From the IMG/VR virus record IMGVR_UViG_3300037585_000501, positions 1-25,671 of that record: a DNA stretch of 25,671 nucleotides, one strand, 5' to 3'. Position 1 is the first letter of the stretch. Each line of letters begins with the position of its first letter. The DNA comes from a virus. A program made the position numbers and the translations under genes. Below, one piece after another: positions 6,477 through 15,228 of this stretch. The notes under the pieces were generated by a model that worked only from the letters and a program-made list of their open reading frames with translations, did no database searches and was not told the DNA's origin.

Positions 6477-8582
6477 TTAGTTCCCCCTTGTTGTAACTTG
6501 ATTATTGATAAATGCATTAACAATAGAGTCATAAAGAGTACTCTTTTGTCCATTAACATAATTAGTTGCCTCGACAGAATTCACAGCAGTCTGGAACTCC
6601 GTGCCATCAATAGACAAAGATATGTTAATAGTTGGTGGCGGGCCTGCGGGGGCTGCGGAGGCGGCTGCTGTAGCCTCAACCGTGGCGGGTGTATTCGTTG
6701 CTCCTGTCATAGCGAGAGCGCCGGCGCTGACTGTTGTAGCAGCCATCGTTGCCGTGTAAGCCATGGCTTTCGTAGTGCTTAGTTCGTTAATAGAAGCAAC
6801 GATACTCGCTATTTCGATTGCCATTGATTGTAAGTTTTTAATCATACCGTCACCAAATATAGAATTAAATGCGGTACCAAGGGCGATTGCGGCAATTGCT
6901 GCGAGGCTAAATGCTCCGGCGAGGGGCAAAATGACAGGCATAAGGCCCAAGGCTGCTGGTGTAAGGAACAGGAAGGCAGCGGCGAGCAAGCCAAGAACCA
7001 CTAAAATACTCGGTGAGAAACCATAGTATATACCTTGTGCTAAGTATGCCACGGCGGTGGCAACAAGCACAAATGGGTTCTTCAGCATAGTTTTGGTAAG
7101 TGCAGCAAAAGCGGTACCGAGCAGATAAATTGCAGGCACCATTAATCGGGCGCCAATAAGAGGCGCCAAAAGTTGGATGCCATCTGCAATTGTCTTTATC
7201 ACAGGTATAAAAACCTGAAATGACATTGCAAGACCACGACCGATTTGCATCAATTCTTCCATAACACCGTTAAACTCTCTTGTTTGTGCCTCAAGTTCTC
7301 TTAGTTCTTTAGCACTTTTCATTGGTTCATTTACCAAATCAATATCGCCATTCATCAACATAGCAAGTTGTGCTTCTCCGAGACCGGTTGCGCTGGCCAA
7401 TGCCTTTCTTTGATAATAGTCCATCTGGTCAAACGAAATACCCGCATTATCAATTCCTTGTTTAAGGAGCCTTAGTCTTTCTGTTGGGTCCGTGACCGAA
7501 ACCATCTGCACAGCGTTAAGGAAAGGTCCGCCGAGCAGTGCGTTTAGTCGCCCAACAGATTCGGCGGCTGTGTCGAAGCGATCAAATTGCTTGGTAAGGT
7601 CTAACAACTCACCCATCTCCATGCCGAGACTCTTAGCAGCAGCCTGCAAACCTCTAAACGCATCAACACCATTAGCACCAAGGGCCGCTATCTCATTCCC
7701 AAACTGTCCAAAATCTGTTGCAATCTTCTCAGCAGATACACCGAGATCTTGAGCGAAAGTAAACAATTCTCGTTGTAGTCTTGCTGCCTGATCAGCATTC
7801 ATGCCCATTGCTTTTGTTGCAAAGTTGAGATTATTGGCAGTGATTTCAGAACTAATTCCAAGTTCTTGCAATATAACAGTTGTTTCTGCTAATGCAGTTT
7901 GATCTTTTTTACTCATCGTGGTAAATTCAGACATATTTAAAAACAAAGATTGGAATGCCTGACCAGCCTCATCGGATGAGACGCCGGCGGTGTACAAAGA
8001 TCTTTCAAGGCCAGCAATTTGAGAGTTAAATGTTCCTGCTTGACCTGTTGCCCTATTAAAGGATACAGCAGCCTTATCTTGAGCAACGGCCAACTGTAGT
8101 GAATTAAAAATTAATGCGCCAAACAGGACTTTCGGGTTTTTTAATTTAGCAAGACCATCCGCCATACCCTTCATAGCGGCTTCTGGGTTTAGCAGACGTT
8201 CGCCAAGTAAGGTCGCGCCATCGGATATTCCAAAGATAGACTTAAGGGTGCCCTCTGTGGCTTGTTTTGTGTCCTGTGTAACAGCAAGGCGTTCTTTATC
8301 AAGAGATAAATCTCTTAGTTTTTTCTTATACAGGGCGTCAGATAGATTGTTTCTATCTTCTAGGAGTTGTTTTATGTCCTCTTCGAGTAATATCGCCTTT
8401 TGTTTATACTCTAATTCTTTTTCATCAATTCCTAATAAATCATCACCAACTTCTTTTAAGTTTTTTGCAAGATTGATTTCATCAGTTAACTTGTTGATCC
8501 TTTCTTGCACTGATAGGCTTCGCGCCTCTTCCAGCGCGGCGATTCTTCTTATAATGGCTTCTGTGTTACTCTCTTCGGACAT
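6477..8582 (-). CDS. Tail tape-measure protein (701 aa)
   Basis: Tape-measure proteins set tail length and are ejected with the DNA. The layout fits. Residues about 5-110 form a charged coiled coil. Residues 150-450 are long helical repeats rich in Ala, Gln, Leu and Gly. Residues about 450-570 contain several hydrophobic segments (for example SILVVLGLLAAAFLFL). An Ala/Thr/Pro-rich linker at 605-650 leads to a short beta C-terminus (TINISLSIDGTEF). The family norm of about 1.5 angstrom per residue predicts a tail near 100 nm, similar to T4 (gp29, 590 aa). The start ATG follows AGGGGG. It is preceded by the 331-aa gene and, further upstream, by a chaperone-like ORF. Confidence 0.85.
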   Translation of the reverse strand: MSEESNTEAIIRRIAALEEARSLSVQERINKLTDEINLAKNLKEVGDDLLGIDEKELEYKQKAILLEEDIKQLLEDRNNLSDALYKKKLRDLSLDKERLAVTQDTKQATEGTLKSIFGISDGATLLGERLLNPEAAMKGMADGLAKLKNPKVLFGALIFNSLQLAVAQDKAAVSFNRATGQAGTFNSQIAGLERSLYTAGVSSDEAGQAFQSLFLNMSEFTTMSKKDQTALAETTVILQELGISSEITANNLNFATKAMGMNADQAARLQRELFTFAQDLGVSAEKIATDFGQFGNEIAALGANGVDAFRGLQAAAKSLGMEMGELLDLTKQFDRFDTAAESVGRLNALLGGPFLNAVQMVSVTDPTERLRLLKQGIDNAGISFDQMDYYQRKALASATGLGEAQLAMLMNGDIDLVNEPMKSAKELRELEAQTREFNGVMEELMQIGRGLAMSFQVFIPVIKTIADGIQLLAPLIGARLMVPAIYLLGTAFAALTKTMLKNPFVLVATAVAYLAQGIYYGFSPSILVVLGLLAAAFLFLTPAALGLMPVILPLAGAFSLAAIAAIALGTAFNSIFGDGMIKNLQSMAIEIASIVASINELSTTKAMAYTATMAATTVSAGALAMTGATNTPATVEATAAASAAPAGPPPTINISLSIDGTEFQTAVNSVEATNYVNGQKSTLYDSIVNAFINNQVTTRGN

Positions 8583-9606: not shown

Positions 9607-9616
9607 TATAAATAGT
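9607..9616 (-). promoter_or_regulatory. Putative late-promoter box, copy 1 (ACTATTTATA)
   Basis: On the coding strand this reads ACTATTTATA. It lies between the terminator at 9627-9661 and the GAGGAG ribosome-binding site of the 331-aa gene, about 17 nt before the start codon. Six more boxes with the ACTATTTA core head other virion transcription units in this window. No conserved -35 element is seen upstream. A T4-late-like single-box promoter is the best reading. Confidence 0.6.
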
Positions 9617-9626
9617 TTGACAAAGC

Positions 9627-9661
9627 AAAAAGACCGGAGGGTTTAACGCCTGCCGGTCTTT
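9627..9661 (-). terminator. Rho-independent terminator after the tube-chaperone unit
   Basis: The minus strand forms a 9-bp stem AAAGACCGG/CCGGTCTTT with a 15-nt loop, followed by a short T run ending TTTTTGC. The upstream arm overlaps the last codons of the 69-aa ORF. It should end transcripts from the tail-tube unit. A promoter-like box follows 10 nt downstream. Confidence 0.75.
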
Positions 9662-9852
9662 CCTTTGTTGGCCTCTTGTATTTTTTCGTTCTCTTTCTCA
9701 ATTTGACTTGCGAGACGTTGAAGAAACCAGCGACGAATTGTTATTGGCAAGTTGTATGCCTCCATAAAAGACCAGTTTCCGTGATACTTTAATAGAAACA
9801 ATTCTTCATATACAGATTGTATATATTCGCTATCTAGACCAAAAAAAGTCAA
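9643..9852 (-). CDS. Small tail-assembly chaperone-like ORF, possibly reached by +1 frameshift (69 aa)
   Basis: This 69-aa frame overlaps the end of the gp26-like gene by 23 nt in the +1 frame. Its only early start is TTG 9852, which has no SD at usable distance. The protein (YEELFLLKYHGNWSFMEAYN, then LPITIRRWFLQRL) has the aromatic helix, N-LP and R-W-x-L-Q-R-L features of small proteins encoded just before tape-measure genes in T4-like phages. These are thought to act as tail-assembly chaperones. The overlap holds a run of seven T, where the gp26 reading TTT-TTT-TGG could slip to GGT and enter this frame. An AAGGAGGT lies just upstream. Either weak TTG initiation by coupling or programmed recoding could express it. 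The C-terminus (ENEKIQEANKGKTGRR) is highly charged. Confidence 0.65.
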   Translation of the reverse strand: MTFFGLDSEYIQSVYEELFLLKYHGNWSFMEAYNLPITIRRWFLQRLASQIEKENEKIQEANKGKTGRR

Positions 9853-10675
9853 CCGTTAAAGGCATTTCCACCTCCTTCTCAAATCCACAAGCATCGCAAG
9901 AGAACTCTTGCGTCATATCAAGACCCGGCTGGACCTTGGCGTATGCTGCGCGTAGATAACGAGAATCGAAGGCAGGAAGGGCATCAATCGCCCTATTAAT
10001 TAAACTTCTATCTTCATTGCCGTTAATAGACAAGGTAATCATTTTTAACTGGTCTGTGAGATTTGGCTCGTAGACTTTGGACTTTTTATTTGCTTGCATC
10101 TTAGCAAGCAGTTCATTTTCATCCTTGCCGGTAAGCAACCTTATTTCCATTTCGAACTTACTTCTTGGAAGTTTAACAATGAAAGTACGACGATCAGTTG
10201 GGGTAACATCATAATCGCCATAATCATCTCCCTCATAAGCACTAATTTCATTTAGATCAAATGTGTTCTCGGATGCAGCGCCACAACTAGGGCAAGTAAC
10301 CTTTGTTGTATAGTCTGCTCCAAAGCCATTAATTCTGGATGCCACAAGAATAGCGTTCTTATCTCCCGATAGGAGACTGGGAACTCTAAGAGTACCGTCA
10401 AGAATAATGTTTTTTAAGAACCGATCAAGTGCAAGGCCTTTCTTTAGAAGGGATGGAGAGGTTAGAATATCCTCGTCCTTTGCTGTCATAAACTTAATTT
10501 CAATCGAATCTTTTTTGTGAAGCGGGTGAACTTCCGAGTAGAATCTACCCTTTGATGGAAGGTCAACTATCTCTGTTGGTACAGAGAAGTCTAAAGGAGA
10601 ACGAGTCTCCTCATCTTGCGCTACAACAGGTGGTGCTTCAGCACCTGCTGCAAAACGCTTACTATTGTCTCTCAT
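9830..10675 (-). CDS. gp26-like baseplate hub subunit with zinc-ribbon cysteines (281 aa)
   Basis: The product resembles the T4 gp26 baseplate family (Pfam T4_baseplate type). It has a disordered N-terminus, then DLPSKGRFY at about 39-46, IEIKFMTAKDEDIL at 58-71 and LLKKGLALDRFL. Two CxxC pairs (CPSC 128-131, CDAC 260-263) could bind zinc. It ends PLTVDFFWSR. At 281 aa it is longer than T4 gp26 (208 aa). The start chosen is ATG 10675 after GAGGTG; a GTG six nt upstream overlaps the SD and is less likely. It follows the second tube gene by 27 nt. It overlaps the small chaperone-like ORF, and its last codons may be a frameshift site. The likely role is a hub component or assembly factor of the baseplate. 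Confidence 0.75.
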   Translation of the reverse strand: MRDNSKRFAAGAEAPPVVAQDEETRSPLDFSVPTEIVDLPSKGRFYSEVHPLHKKDSIEIKFMTAKDEDILTSPSLLKKGLALDRFLKNIILDGTLRVPSLLSGDKNAILVASRINGFGADYTTKVTCPSCGAASENTFDLNEISAYEGDDYGDYDVTPTDRRTFIVKLPRSKFEMEIRLLTGKDENELLAKMQANKKSKVYEPNLTDQLKMITLSINGNEDRSLINRAIDALPAFDSRYLRAAYAKVQPGLDMTQEFSCDACGFEKEVEMPLTVDFFWSR

Positions 10676-10702
10676 AAACACCTCATATTGTTTGTTTTAT
10701 TT

Positions 10703-11635
10703 TTATGGATCGCCGGTTATGGCGGAGTCGGATCCATCCGTACTTTTAGTTTTGGCCGGAAGGCCAACGCCGTTTTGTCTGCAATATTTATCGCCCTTGT
10801 AAAACTCTGCTTCTTCCACGACGGGTTCTTTGTTGGCAGTTTGGGCTGCGACATAAGCAATATATTTGTCCTTACATTTGCTAGTCGCAGTCGTTTTTGA
10901 AATTGGCTCTTCAAGCAATGCCGCAGCATCTTGGGATAACAATTTGGAATCAGGAAAATATGTAAAACCTTGTTCTTGGCCTATCTTAGGAAACTCGACA
11001 GTAAAGGCAGTATAATACCAAGTAAGAGTTATCTCAACTAATTCATTGCTGGAATAATCAAATTTTCCAAAATCTACTTGGTCAGGGTATGCATCATAAA
11101 GTGTCCACCTTTCTATATCATTACCTTTTTCATCTAACTGGTATATTTGCACGTCACCGATTGAATTTAAAAAAGATCTTGCATAATCTGATATATCTCC
11201 TCCGTTCTGGATCGCACCTCTTGCTTGTGAATCATTAAGACCGCCTCTTCGGAAAAGTCTTGCTATCTTTCTTGTGACATTTGGATAATACGGATCGACC
11301 AAAACCATTGTAATAGGCCGCATTGTGGGTGTCGTAACCCTTGGATTTGCTCTTGCACGCTGAAAACCTGTTAAGGCTTTCCCTTGTTCGTCGTCTGGCA
11401 AGTCCATGCCGGGCTTGTCGCAAGACTTAATATACCATACATCCGCACCAGTTAAGCCTACACTTTGCTTATCTTTAAAGGCATCGCCACCGGGTGCTTC
11501 ACTTTTTTCGTTTCTGGCGTCTTCTAAGCCAAGACCCGGTATAACCACCCTGAACCTAAACTGGGCTTTGGGGGCGCGAGTGCTATTGGTCCAAAACTGC
11601 GGGTCTACTCTGTCTGTAAAATCTTCAATAGACAT
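10703..11635 (-). CDS. Second tail-tube-like protein with C-terminal extension (310 aa)
   Basis: This is a paralogue of the adjacent gp19-like tube protein. Both begin with FWTNS..R.PK..FRFRV, and both contain a DE.GN..E.WTL block followed by a F..DY...L.E.T.T..Y strand pair. The paralogue adds an insertion near residues 35-60 (EDARNEKSEAPGGDAFKDKQ) and about 90 C-terminal residues beyond the tube fold, with two cysteines (KCKDKY, KYCRQN). In T4, gp48 and gp54 at the tube-baseplate junction are gp19-fold proteins. This copy could be such a junction or initiator ring. It could also be a second tube subunit. The start ATG follows AGAGG and lies 14 nt after the first tube gene. Confidence 0.75.
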   Translation of the reverse strand: MSIEDFTDRVDPQFWTNSTRAPKAQFRFRVVIPGLGLEDARNEKSEAPGGDAFKDKQSVGLTGADVWYIKSCDKPGMDLPDDEQGKALTGFQRARANPRVTTPTMRPITMVLVDPYYPNVTRKIARLFRRGGLNDSQARGAIQNGGDISDYARSFLNSIGDVQIYQLDEKGNDIERWTLYDAYPDQVDFGKFDYSSNELVEITLTWYYTAFTVEFPKIGQEQGFTYFPDSKLLSQDAAALLEEPISKTTATSKCKDKYIAYVAAQTANKEPVVEEAEFYKGDKYCRQNGVGLPAKTKSTDGSDSAITGDP

Positions 11636-11649
11636 TTAAGCCTCTGGTA

Positions 11650-12231
11650 TTAAACTGTAAATAACTTAGGAATACCGGGAGTACTAGGAGTCTCAAACGA
11701 GGCCCAATCATAACGCATTGTCATAGTGACTTCAGTGAGGTCTTCGTTACCGTAGTCCAACTCACCGAAAGTCAATGATTTAACCCACCCATTGTTAAGG
11801 GTCCATTTCTCCAAGGAGTTTCCTTCTTCATCGATCTGCTCAATAAGAACTTGACCCAATGCAGCAACAGAATCAGCCTTGGAGACAGTTGCAAAGTCAT
11901 TAGGGCCGTTAACACCAGCAGGGATACGGTATCCGGCTCTTTCGACCAACTGTGCAAGACTACCAGCCACATCAGGATCAGCAGGATCAACAAATGTAAT
12001 GGACACTTCATTCCACTCTGTACGAGCAGGCCAGTAGTAAGTATGGTTCAAATAACTGTGAGTTGATTCCGTAAAGGAAACCTCTGGCTTGGTTGCTGTC
12101 TTAGCAAACCACATGATACCACCGCCCAGAACAGGGTCTTCTTCTGCACCGGTAAAACTAACCCTAAATCTGAAGTTACGTTTTGGGTCTCTAACTCCTG
12201 AGTTAGTCCAAAAATTATTGGTCGTGGCCAT
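11650..12231 (-). CDS. Tail tube protein, gp19-like (193 aa)
   Basis: Length (193 aa against 163 in T4 gp19) and position directly after the sheath gene fit the major tail tube protein. It polymerises as hexameric rings inside the sheath. Visible features are the N-terminal FWTNSGVRDPKRNFRFRV strand, a KPEVSF segment (the T4-family K-P-x-x block), a W-NE-VSITFVDP strand and a C-terminal LTFGELDYGNEDLTEVTMT hairpin. SD AGGAG precedes the start, and the ACTATTTA box is about 21 nt upstream. It is the first gene of a unit that continues through the second tube gene and the gp26-like gene. Confidence 0.88.
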   Translation of the reverse strand: MATTNNFWTNSGVRDPKRNFRFRVSFTGAEEDPVLGGGIMWFAKTATKPEVSFTESTHSYLNHTYYWPARTEWNEVSITFVDPADPDVAGSLAQLVERAGYRIPAGVNGPNDFATVSKADSVAALGQVLIEQIDEEGNSLEKWTLNNGWVKSLTFGELDYGNEDLTEVTMTMRYDWASFETPSTPGIPKLFTV

Positions 12232-12276: not shown

Positions 12277-15228
12277 TTAGTCCTCAAAAGAGGCCCCTGA
12301 GCGTGTGATAATAAAGTCGATCGCGATAAACTCAATGGCGCGGGTAGGCTTGATAAAGATCTTCGCGTAGAGGATGTTTCTATCAACAAGGTCTGGGGTA
12401 GTGGTGGTTTCGTCAAGAACAATCTTGAAGTCATCAATACCAAAGTTAACTTTGACGCTGTTAAGGAACCTTTCTGCTCTCGACTTGAAGTCATTCCAAG
12501 TAGCCTCGACATTAGGCTGGAATAAAGTTCCCGTGGAGATTCTGGAGATACCTCGCTTAACGAAGATCATAAGACGGCGGATATTGATACGGTCAAGAGC
12601 CGACTGAGTTGCTTGAAGTGTCTTTTGTCCAAAGATAACGATGCCCTCTGCGGGGAACGATGCGATCGGGTTGATATTAACATCGTACAGATCGTCACGG
12701 TTGCGGGAGGTTAGTTTCTGCTCAACACCAACAACCGGGAGACCGCCGGCGCCAGTCGAAAGACCGCCACGATTGAATCCTGCGGGTGCGAACCAAACAT
12801 CCGAAGCTCTCTCAGTGTTTGCGAGAACACCAAGTGCGACAACCGAAGGTGGCACATAAAGGAGAGTTCCGTTAATATCATCTCTGATATTGACCCAAGG
12901 ATAGTAAGCTGCACCATAAGAGTTGTTAATATTTCGTGCTGTCATCTGTGTGATTGTTGTATCAATACTTCCCCTTCTAGTCGAAGCTGCGGCGTTCGAC
13001 TCATGTCTTGGAGTTAAGCCTCCTTCGACATCAATAATTGCAAGTGTATCTGCTCTAGACTCTGCTGTATCAATAATGTGCTTAGTTACGCGCTCATCGG
13101 TTATACCGGGCATTGAAAGAAGGTTCATTTGCGCCACTTCAGGATCAGCAACAATATCAACTGCTCTGCGAAGAGTGTGGTATACATAACTACTTTTCTC
13201 TGCTGGGTTGGTGCTAATCAGTGAGTTACGGAATGGATCACGCTCTGTGATATCAACACCGTCAAACCCACCAAAGAGAGGAGCCGTGAAACGATTGACT
13301 TTAGAATCAAGAATATTCTTGTAGCGGTTTGCAGTTAAAGTGCTGCCTCCAGAGCCGGATGAGTTCCAAGAAGTCCCTGCTACGACCGAGCCTGCTGTCC
13401 AATCTACTTTTGTAATCATTCTGGACGGCGACGAGTCAGAGAATGCGGTTCCATCCGTTGTAACAACAAGCTCATCCAATGTAAATACCCACTGATTAAC
13501 AAGGCCATTGGGTAGTGTACCCTTGCCAAAGTCATCAGCCCAAGAACTGTCGGCTACTACATCAGCACCAAAGGCTCTAAGATAATCAGGATAGCCCGGA
13601 TCATAAATATTCGAAGTAGAAGTTTTGGTGTTTTGTAAGCCAAAGAAAGCGTTTGTCGTAGGATCACAACCATCGCCGGAACCTGTTGAACTGACACCTA
13701 ATGCTTGTGGGCGAATACCTACTTTCGGAAAAGTAATACTTGCTGTTCCAAAGGGGTTAGTCGCTACGGCCGAGAACACAAACATACCACCGAGGTTAGT
13801 AGGCATGTTAACAACCGGAACACTACCTGATCCTAAAACATATGCACTGGCTACCGTGGCGGCGGTGGATCCACTATTGAAAGTAAAGCTTGGGAACCTT
13901 GGAGGACCAAAGACGCCAAACGGAAGAAGTTTTGAATCAATACCGCCTTCGAGAGCCGAGTTCATATGAGCACGAATATATTTTGAGCGATTAGGGTATT
14001 GGCCATACTCCCGGTACCTTTTCTCAGTATCGTCGTATTCTTGGTACCTATCGCCAATAACCAAAGGAAGATAGTTAGAGGAATTCTTATTAAGAGTACA
14101 TTCTGAATATCTCTCTAGAACAACCGGCGCTAAATCATTATCTTTTGCATCGCGAATAACTACGTCAAAAGTTCCAAATTCAACATTGTCATTACGAGAA
14201 TATTTGATATTATCGATAGAGACTTTAATGTCTCTCTGGAGTTGCGAACCATAGCCATTGATACCAATGAACTTAAATAGTTTGGTCATTTTGTTATATG
14301 TAAATGACGCGGTTGCGTCTAAGTTTTGAGCAAAGAACCACCCAGTGTGTGCGTCACGATATGCCATACGCTTATTGTGGTTACCGGCTTCTCCTGAGCC
14401 AGATACAACTGGGAGGATAACGCCACGACGGAGGGTGGCGGTGTTAAAACCACTATCAATCAAGTGTCTTTCATAAGTCTCGCCAAGCCAATAAGGCTTC
14501 GTGTCATCCGAAGACTCAATAGTAGTGTTTACCAATTGTGGATTGGTGTTAAAAAGTTTTCTGATATAACGGTCGCCAGAAGCATCTAATGTAGCTGTTT
14601 TGTTTTCTATCTCAGTGGATCCCTTTTGTAGAATCCTAATTTTAAACTGTCCGGAGGAATCGGAATCAACAATTGTCGCAACCCCCTCTTGATTTGTTGC
14701 GGCGCCGGATGCCTTGTAAGAACCAGACAAAACAGGCACCGAGCCACTGTTCATATACCACACAGCGGCAAGAGTTCCGTTATTGGTGCCAGACCCGGAA
14801 TCAAAAACAAACAGTCCATATGGGCCACCATTTGATGCAGCAACAGTATCAGGCGTATTAAGAGTTTCCCAGCCTGCTTTACCGTTTGCGTCAGCGTTAG
14901 GATCTTGCGTTCCCATTAATCGAATATACGTCACTGGTCCGACGCCAGCAGCAAGATAAGCCTGTGCAGCGTATGCACCATAAGTTGGGGACGAATAGTT
15001 GCCGTCACGCCAAGTGTCTTCGACACCACCTCTGCCCGCAATGGGGTTACCGAAAGTTTCTACAAACTCGGAAAAAGAATTAACTGTGGTTGGGACCATA
15101 CCCGGTCCTTTTTCTGCGCGACCAATGATAACTGGACCAACGTTCTCCGGTAACGCTGGGATCTGTGATTGGTCGATCTCATTCAGGAAAATACCCGGTG
15201 AAACAAATCTGAATTTATTGGCTGGCAT
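12277..15228 (-). CDS. Tail sheath protein, gp18-like, oversized (983 aa)
   Basis: This is the contractile tail sheath subunit. The N-terminal part has FVSPGIFLNEIDQS, GPVIIGRAEKGP and YAAQAYLAAGVGPVTYIRL, the conserved sheath start. The C-terminal 230 residues contain YYPWVNIRDD, DVWFAPAGFNRGGL (T4: W-x-SPAG-NRG), VIFGQKTLQ, the RRLMIFVKR helix and a closing domain ending FIAIDFII. Length is 983 aa against 659 in T4. The extra material sits between about residues 120 and 650 and is rich in Gly, Ser, Asn and Thr, consistent with surface-exposed insertion domains. SD AAGGAG precedes ATG 15228. The gene appears to form its own transcription unit, with putative promoter boxes on both sides. Confidence 0.92.
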   Translation of the reverse strand: MPANKFRFVSPGIFLNEIDQSQIPALPENVGPVIIGRAEKGPGMVPTTVNSFSEFVETFGNPIAGRGGVEDTWRDGNYSSPTYGAYAAQAYLAAGVGPVTYIRLMGTQDPNADANGKAGWETLNTPDTVAASNGGPYGLFVFDSGSGTNNGTLAAVWYMNSGSVPVLSGSYKASGAATNQEGVATIVDSDSSGQFKIRILQKGSTEIENKTATLDASGDRYIRKLFNTNPQLVNTTIESSDDTKPYWLGETYERHLIDSGFNTATLRRGVILPVVSGSGEAGNHNKRMAYRDAHTGWFFAQNLDATASFTYNKMTKLFKFIGINGYGSQLQRDIKVSIDNIKYSRNDNVEFGTFDVVIRDAKDNDLAPVVLERYSECTLNKNSSNYLPLVIGDRYQEYDDTEKRYREYGQYPNRSKYIRAHMNSALEGGIDSKLLPFGVFGPPRFPSFTFNSGSTAATVASAYVLGSGSVPVVNMPTNLGGMFVFSAVATNPFGTASITFPKVGIRPQALGVSSTGSGDGCDPTTNAFFGLQNTKTSTSNIYDPGYPDYLRAFGADVVADSSWADDFGKGTLPNGLVNQWVFTLDELVVTTDGTAFSDSSPSRMITKVDWTAGSVVAGTSWNSSGSGGSTLTANRYKNILDSKVNRFTAPLFGGFDGVDITERDPFRNSLISTNPAEKSSYVYHTLRRAVDIVADPEVAQMNLLSMPGITDERVTKHIIDTAESRADTLAIIDVEGGLTPRHESNAAASTRRGSIDTTITQMTARNINNSYGAAYYPWVNIRDDINGTLLYVPPSVVALGVLANTERASDVWFAPAGFNRGGLSTGAGGLPVVGVEQKLTSRNRDDLYDVNINPIASFPAEGIVIFGQKTLQATQSALDRINIRRLMIFVKRGISRISTGTLFQPNVEATWNDFKSRAERFLNSVKVNFGIDDFKIVLDETTTTPDLVDRNILYAKIFIKPTRAIEFIAIDFIITRSGASFED

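Follow-up and report, generated by a model that had tools for sequence, protein, structure and literature searches.

A Very Probable Programmed +1 Frameshift at UUU-UGG in the gp26-Like Tail-Assembly Chaperone Gene of a Marine Phage

Introduction

The bacterial gene for release factor 2 (RF2, prfB) is expressed through a +1 frameshift at CUU-UGA. To our knowledge, programmed +1 shifts are much rarer than -1 shifts in described phages and follow no general motif.

Phage lambda gpG and gpGT are a frameshifted tail-assembly chaperone (Xu, Hendrix and Duda 2004, as cited in PMC5009743), and -1 sites with a poly-T sequence, GTTTTT, occur in the chaperone genes of Vandenendeviridae and Andersonviridae (PMC12846349). 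Shifts of +1 are described for Listeria phage PSA (CCC-UGA) and, probably, for the haloarchaeal myovirus HSTV-2 (PMC5009743). The T4 proteins gp26 and gp51 are listed as hub assembly chaperones (PMC3004832), and some T4-like phages, in the account that PMC10885494 gives of Vladimirov et al. (2022, Virology 566:9-15), encode the short chaperone and the long fusion in two separate genes and use no frameshift.

The locus described here lies in a 25,671-nt viral sequence (IMG/VR record IMGVR_UViG_3300037585_000501, positions 1 to 25,671; hereafter the window). A +1 frameshift at UUU-UGG very probably yields a short and an extended tail-assembly chaperone in this marine phage.

Results

The gp26-like gene, on the minus strand, ends GAC-TTT-TTT-TGG-TCT-AGA-TAG (9850-9830), which comprises GAC at 9850-9848, a run of seven T's (T7) at 9847-9841, TGG at 9841-9839 and the zero-frame stop codon TAG at 9832-9830. 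With TTT (9842..9844) in the P site and TGG (9839..9841), which encodes the sole tryptophan of the translated protein, in the A site, a slip of one base would re-pair the P-site tRNA with TTT at 9843-9841 and give entry at GGT (9840-9838) into the +1 frame, which runs for 65 codons to TAA (9645-9643). The first-pass annotation had described the T7 run, the TGG next in the zero frame and the entry at GGT in this way, and all of its coordinates proved correct when the minus strand was re-checked.

The zero-frame product (TAC-N; 9833..10675, minus strand) is 281 aa long from ATG 10675, has two CxxC pairs and ends FFWSR. This ATG is probably the start, rather than the listed GTG at 10681, because relatives begin MRDNSKR. 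Translation with a 4-base step gives a predicted transframe fusion (TAC-NC; 9646..10675, minus strand) of 343 aa, or 345 aa when counted from GTG 10681, with the junction ...VDFF-GLDSEY.... The T-like C-terminal extension of this fusion (9646..9840, minus strand, +1 frame) begins GLDSEYIQSVYEELF and has no start codon of its own.

The gp26-like protein matched PF12322 (T4_baseplate, the gp26/gp51 family) with 50.3 bits (E 3.3e-13), passing the curated Pfam cut-off of 24.5 bits, and phrog_150 "baseplate hub" with E 1.2e-13. Among 549 PDB chains aligned to the AlphaFold model of the zero-frame protein (pLDDT 86), the best two were 2ob9 from HK97 (Z 5.8) and 3klu, YqbN (Z 5.3), which we take to be a tail-assembly-chaperone homologue, with the next chain at 3.6; both matches are modest, with Z below 8 and an rmsd of about 7.4 A. 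2ob9 is the HK97 tail-assembly chaperone. A Foldseek search of the PDB with the model gave nothing significant, and no solved structure was found among the sequence relatives of the protein. The description of the small ORF as tail-chaperone-like in the earlier annotation was apt, and family membership and modelled fold suggest that the gp26-like protein is itself the short tail-assembly chaperone and that the predicted pair is TAC-N and TAC-NC.

Upstream of the gp26-like gene on the same strand lie two tail-tube-like genes (10703-11635 and 11650-12231; phrog_4542/phrog_45 tail tube) and a tail sheath gene (12277..15228; phrog_23, E 3.6e-66). The tandem tail-tube-like genes differ in size (310 and 193 aa), and each matches both phrog_4542 and phrog_45. 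A minus-strand ORF at 6477..8582 encodes 701 aa, is rich in Ala and Leu and is devoid of Cys and Trp; it had no database match. Its composition and length, together with counterpart ORFs elsewhere, suggest that it is likely the tape-measure gene: eight relatives have a large ORF of 681-986 aa close to the T-like ORF or immediately downstream of it, and annotation of the next large gene names a tape measure in phages immuto and LIS04 and a tape measure or tail protein in SP-15. A strong hairpin followed by T's (9616-9670, minus strand; AAAGACCGG...CCGGTCTTTTTGC; -23.7 kcal/mol, z -4.05) overlaps the stop codon that closes the T-like ORF, and it resembles an intrinsic terminator placed directly 3' of the chaperone gene, although it was absent from the output of a simple terminator scan.

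Relatives were obtained from two scans of viral contigs, the first yielding 80 (36-99% identity) and the second 80 more. Once identical stretches had been removed, 134 loci were readable at the junction and are the non-identical relatives of the window's lineage referred to below. The motif [TC]TT TGG [CTAG]CT (YTT TGG NCT) is kept in register in 134/134, and a zero-frame stop follows 2-4 codons past the site in each. At the slip codon 130 relatives have TTT and 4 have CTT; TTC never occurs there, the third base being T in all 134, and the T that follows the slip codon is likewise common to all relatives in the lineage. Elsewhere in the same genes phenylalanine is encoded by TTT 1004 times and by TTC 383 times (28% TTC). 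Conservation in register in every relative and a third base confined to T, despite the use of TTC elsewhere, place the site beyond chance. The first-pass annotation had proposed conservation of the T run as a check, and the TTT-TGG site is kept. The periodicity of information content passes from the zero frame to the +1 frame at the slip codon. As in other frameshifted tail-assembly chaperones, a conserved slippery sequence lies at the ORF overlap, and a second, startless ORF in another frame overlaps the end of the first. Unlike that of a canonical -1 frameshift of the form X XXY YYZ, the extension lies in the +1 frame both in the window and throughout its lineage.

The +1 ORF is open in every relative of this lineage except where the end of a contig cuts it. 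Across 126 sequences the extension contains no stop codon in the +1 frame versus 306 and 339 in the other two, and its median dN/dS is 0.05 in the +1 frame versus 1.55 and 2.58. On these figures, the extension evolves as a protein in the +1 frame only, under purifying selection. No Pfam family matched it above the cut-off, one relative's copy matched phrog_20255, of unknown function, weakly, and in annotated phage records it is either unannotated or called a separate hypothetical gene.

The arrangement extends to distant phages. Rhodothermus phage RM378 (protein identity only 26%) and Microcystis phage Mel-JY01 have TTT TTT TGG at the same place and Flavobacterium phage immuto has TTT CTT TGG, each with the +1 ORF. 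A second lineage, formed by relatives of Mel-JY01 and immuto (74 loci), has YTT TGG in 67 and TTT TAC or TTT TTC in 6; the lone exception (L222, near 2247) reads TTC-TTC-TGG and carries the T-like domain in frame -1, either because the shift has switched direction or because of an assembly error. SP-15-like phages (L267-L296) have the +1 ORF mostly after TTT CGY, which is possibly a second +1 motif with UUU re-pairing on UUC. In the jumbo phages LR756511 (L087) and XacN1 (L090) it is the -1 frame that holds the extension, downstream of T-TTT-TTC or T-TTT-TTT; -1 extensions were found only in these two and in L222.

PF12322 includes both T4 gp26 and gp51, which cover positions 14-235 and 13-280, respectively, of the 282 of phrog_150, and the predicted fusion aligns with T4 gp51 end to end (P 1.2e-4). 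Direct comparison of the T-domain with gp51 was initially not significant; with more gp51 sequences it scored 14.9 versus a maximum of 14.8 in 200 column shuffles, a likeness that is supportive but not proof.

The direction of the shift can be read from variants that break the T run, namely TTC-TTT-TGG in 5 and TTT-CTT-TGG in 4 of the 134 non-identical relatives, with the +1 ORF intact in all nine. Transcriptional slippage, in which RNA polymerase would omit one base in T7 and the edited mRNA would encode the fusion, fits the window and most relatives, in which T7 is present. The nine variants, however, retain runs of only T4 (TTC TTT TGG) or T3 (TTT CTT TGG), a poor substrate for such slippage, as does the distant immuto. 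Moreover, the run is preceded by GAC rather than GAT (59:1 in one clade), a preference that avoids T8, and we therefore consider polymerase slippage very unlikely. A -2 ribosomal slip would reach the identical frame and give FFF-GLD instead of FF-GLD; UUU can re-pair two bases back in T7, and -2 shifting is documented for phage Mu (PMC5009743). In the TTC-TTT-TGG relatives it would nevertheless pair tRNA-Phe with UCU; these sequences bar re-pairing at -2 and permit it at +1, and the invariant positions are only those that a +1 slip needs, leaving the -2 slip highly improbable. The variants support slippage of the P-site tRNA by +1, on UUU-U or, as in RF2, on CUU-U.

Alternatively, the small ORF could be an independent gene starting internally or at TTG 9852, which an ORF caller did find and which the first-pass annotation had noted as a start lacking a Shine-Dalgarno sequence. 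This TTG is indeed the only upstream start of the +1 ORF in the window, 12 nt before GGT, but it is missing from many of the relatives inspected, and many have no start codon whatever in the +1 frame ahead of the slip. Roughly half of the inspected relatives carry +1-frame stops within 9-15 nt 5' of the slip codon, and no conserved start or Shine-Dalgarno sequence for the small ORF, nor any common internal start, was found among the relatives' loci read. The lack of a proper start codon, which the first-pass annotation had named as a supporting observation, holds among these relatives, and a separate gene is extremely unlikely. A gene broken by sequencing error or mutation, as the position of the frame change at a homopolymer, the usual place for errors, might suggest, is refuted by conservation, the frame relation being the same in 134/134 non-identical relatives from independent assemblies and also in finished isolate genomes.

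The programmed +1 frameshift put forward in the first-pass annotation is supported: the site is kept, the extension is coding in the +1 frame only and the variants agree with slippage of a P-site tRNA. Patterns of sequence evolution show where the slip site lies, which way the predicted shift runs, that the extension is coding and that it lacks a start.

A Shine-Dalgarno-like element, AAGGAGGT (9870..9877, minus strand; -33 to -26 from the slip codon), shows synonymous bias and is a candidate stimulator. The GAG:GAA ratio at codon -30 is 17:0 within the window's own clade, versus 134:167 elsewhere in those genes (p 1.9e-6), and at codon -24 within the larger clade it is 72:0, versus 684:1122 elsewhere. 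Both biases create GGAGG, which lies at -25 or about -31. They are not accounted for by codon context, since GAR before GTN elsewhere is GAG in 73 cases and GAA in 101, and the internal GGAGG appears from these codon counts to be under synonymous selection. The element to which the first-pass annotation had drawn attention is thus selected, but at 20-27 nt upstream of the slip codon it is too far for the classic RF2-type geometry. It may act as a stimulator by making the ribosome pause a few codons before the slip site, or by pushing it from behind.

In individual sequences of the larger (CCT) clade, the region from GGAGG to the slip codon has a more stable fold than its synonymous shuffles (z -2.6 to -2.8), with a 5' hairpin present in this one clade; in the window's own clade the upstream fold is weakly more stable (z -0.7 to -1.9). 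The hairpin would tolerate GAA in place of GAG, so the GGAGG signal is distinct from it. RNAalifold found no consensus structure across clades, and a downstream stem (+10..+76) is modest (z about -1.1). An in-frame ATG is present in the window at 9865, from which the earlier annotation had suggested a separate short product, MPLTVDFF; this was rejected, as codon -21 is ATG in only 7/134 relatives.

Discussion

We propose that most ribosomes end at TAG and produce TAC-N. In a minority, tRNA-Phe on UUU in the P site, with UGG waiting in the A site, would slip one base onto UUU; Gly-tRNA would then be accepted at GGU and the +1 ORF read through, giving TAC-NC, the short chaperone joined to a helical T-like domain. 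If lambda gpG/gpGT is taken as the model, the short form would coat the tape-measure protein and the extension would recruit tail-tube subunits. The shifting rate, the role of the upstream GGAGG and the function in assembly are what we infer here. Several points count against the model: UGG, not being a stop codon, does not have to be decoded slowly, the structural match to known chaperones is modest, no consensus RNA structure emerged, and L222 has its T-like domain in the -1 frame.

A frameshifted chaperone is a well-known strategy. Three features of this one appear to be new within the literature searched: the shift by +1, the site UUU-UGG and the GGAGG upstream of it. The result is a simple +1 site, near-universal in independent sequences from more than 200 relatives, with candidate upstream stimulators, and many public pairs of "baseplate hub" and "hypothetical protein" could be re-labelled as one chaperone gene. 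A further and more doubtful proposal, which we think rather unlikely as a whole, is that UUU-UGG is an unreported +1 recoding signal that needs neither a stop nor an adjacent Shine-Dalgarno sequence and depends on decoding of a single Trp codon with a 5' GGAGG and/or 5' hairpin behind the ribosome; the arrangement would perhaps be near the ancestral one, T4 genes 26 and 51 arising by duplication and fusion. If this were true, the chaperone ratio could track charged tRNA-Trp.

Comparison with described systems places the locus between several of them. It resembles RF2 in that a P-site tRNA would slip +1 on YUU U, with CUU itself in 4/134 relatives; it differs in having UGG rather than a stop in the A site (TGG in 134/134) and a Shine-Dalgarno-like element 20-27 nt away rather than adjacent. 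PSA and HSTV-2 share the +1 direction in phage structural or tail genes, but they use other slip codons, and the PSA genes are those of the capsid and tail shaft, not a chaperone. Vandenendeviridae and Andersonviridae likewise carry a poly-T site where a myovirus chaperone gene ends (PMC12846349), although the direction is -1 and the T run rather than YTT TGG is the site. Like lambda gpG/gpGT, the locus has a short protein and a predicted low-abundance extended form, encoded just upstream of what is likely the tape-measure gene, with an extension that lacks a start. Lambda and most phages, however, shift -1 whereas the window's phage shifts +1, and the protein family differs, being PF12322 with zinc-ribbon-like CxxC pairs in the window. 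In T4, gp26 corresponds to the short form and gp51 to a gp26-like protein with a C-terminal extension (Vladimirov, Gautam and Davidson 2022, as related in PMC10885494 and PMC12846349), but T4 uses two genes, 26 and 51, with no frameshift, where the window's phage has one gene and a +1 shift. The PF12322 family would thus realize the same two-product logic via +1 shifts, via -1 shifts and via separate genes.
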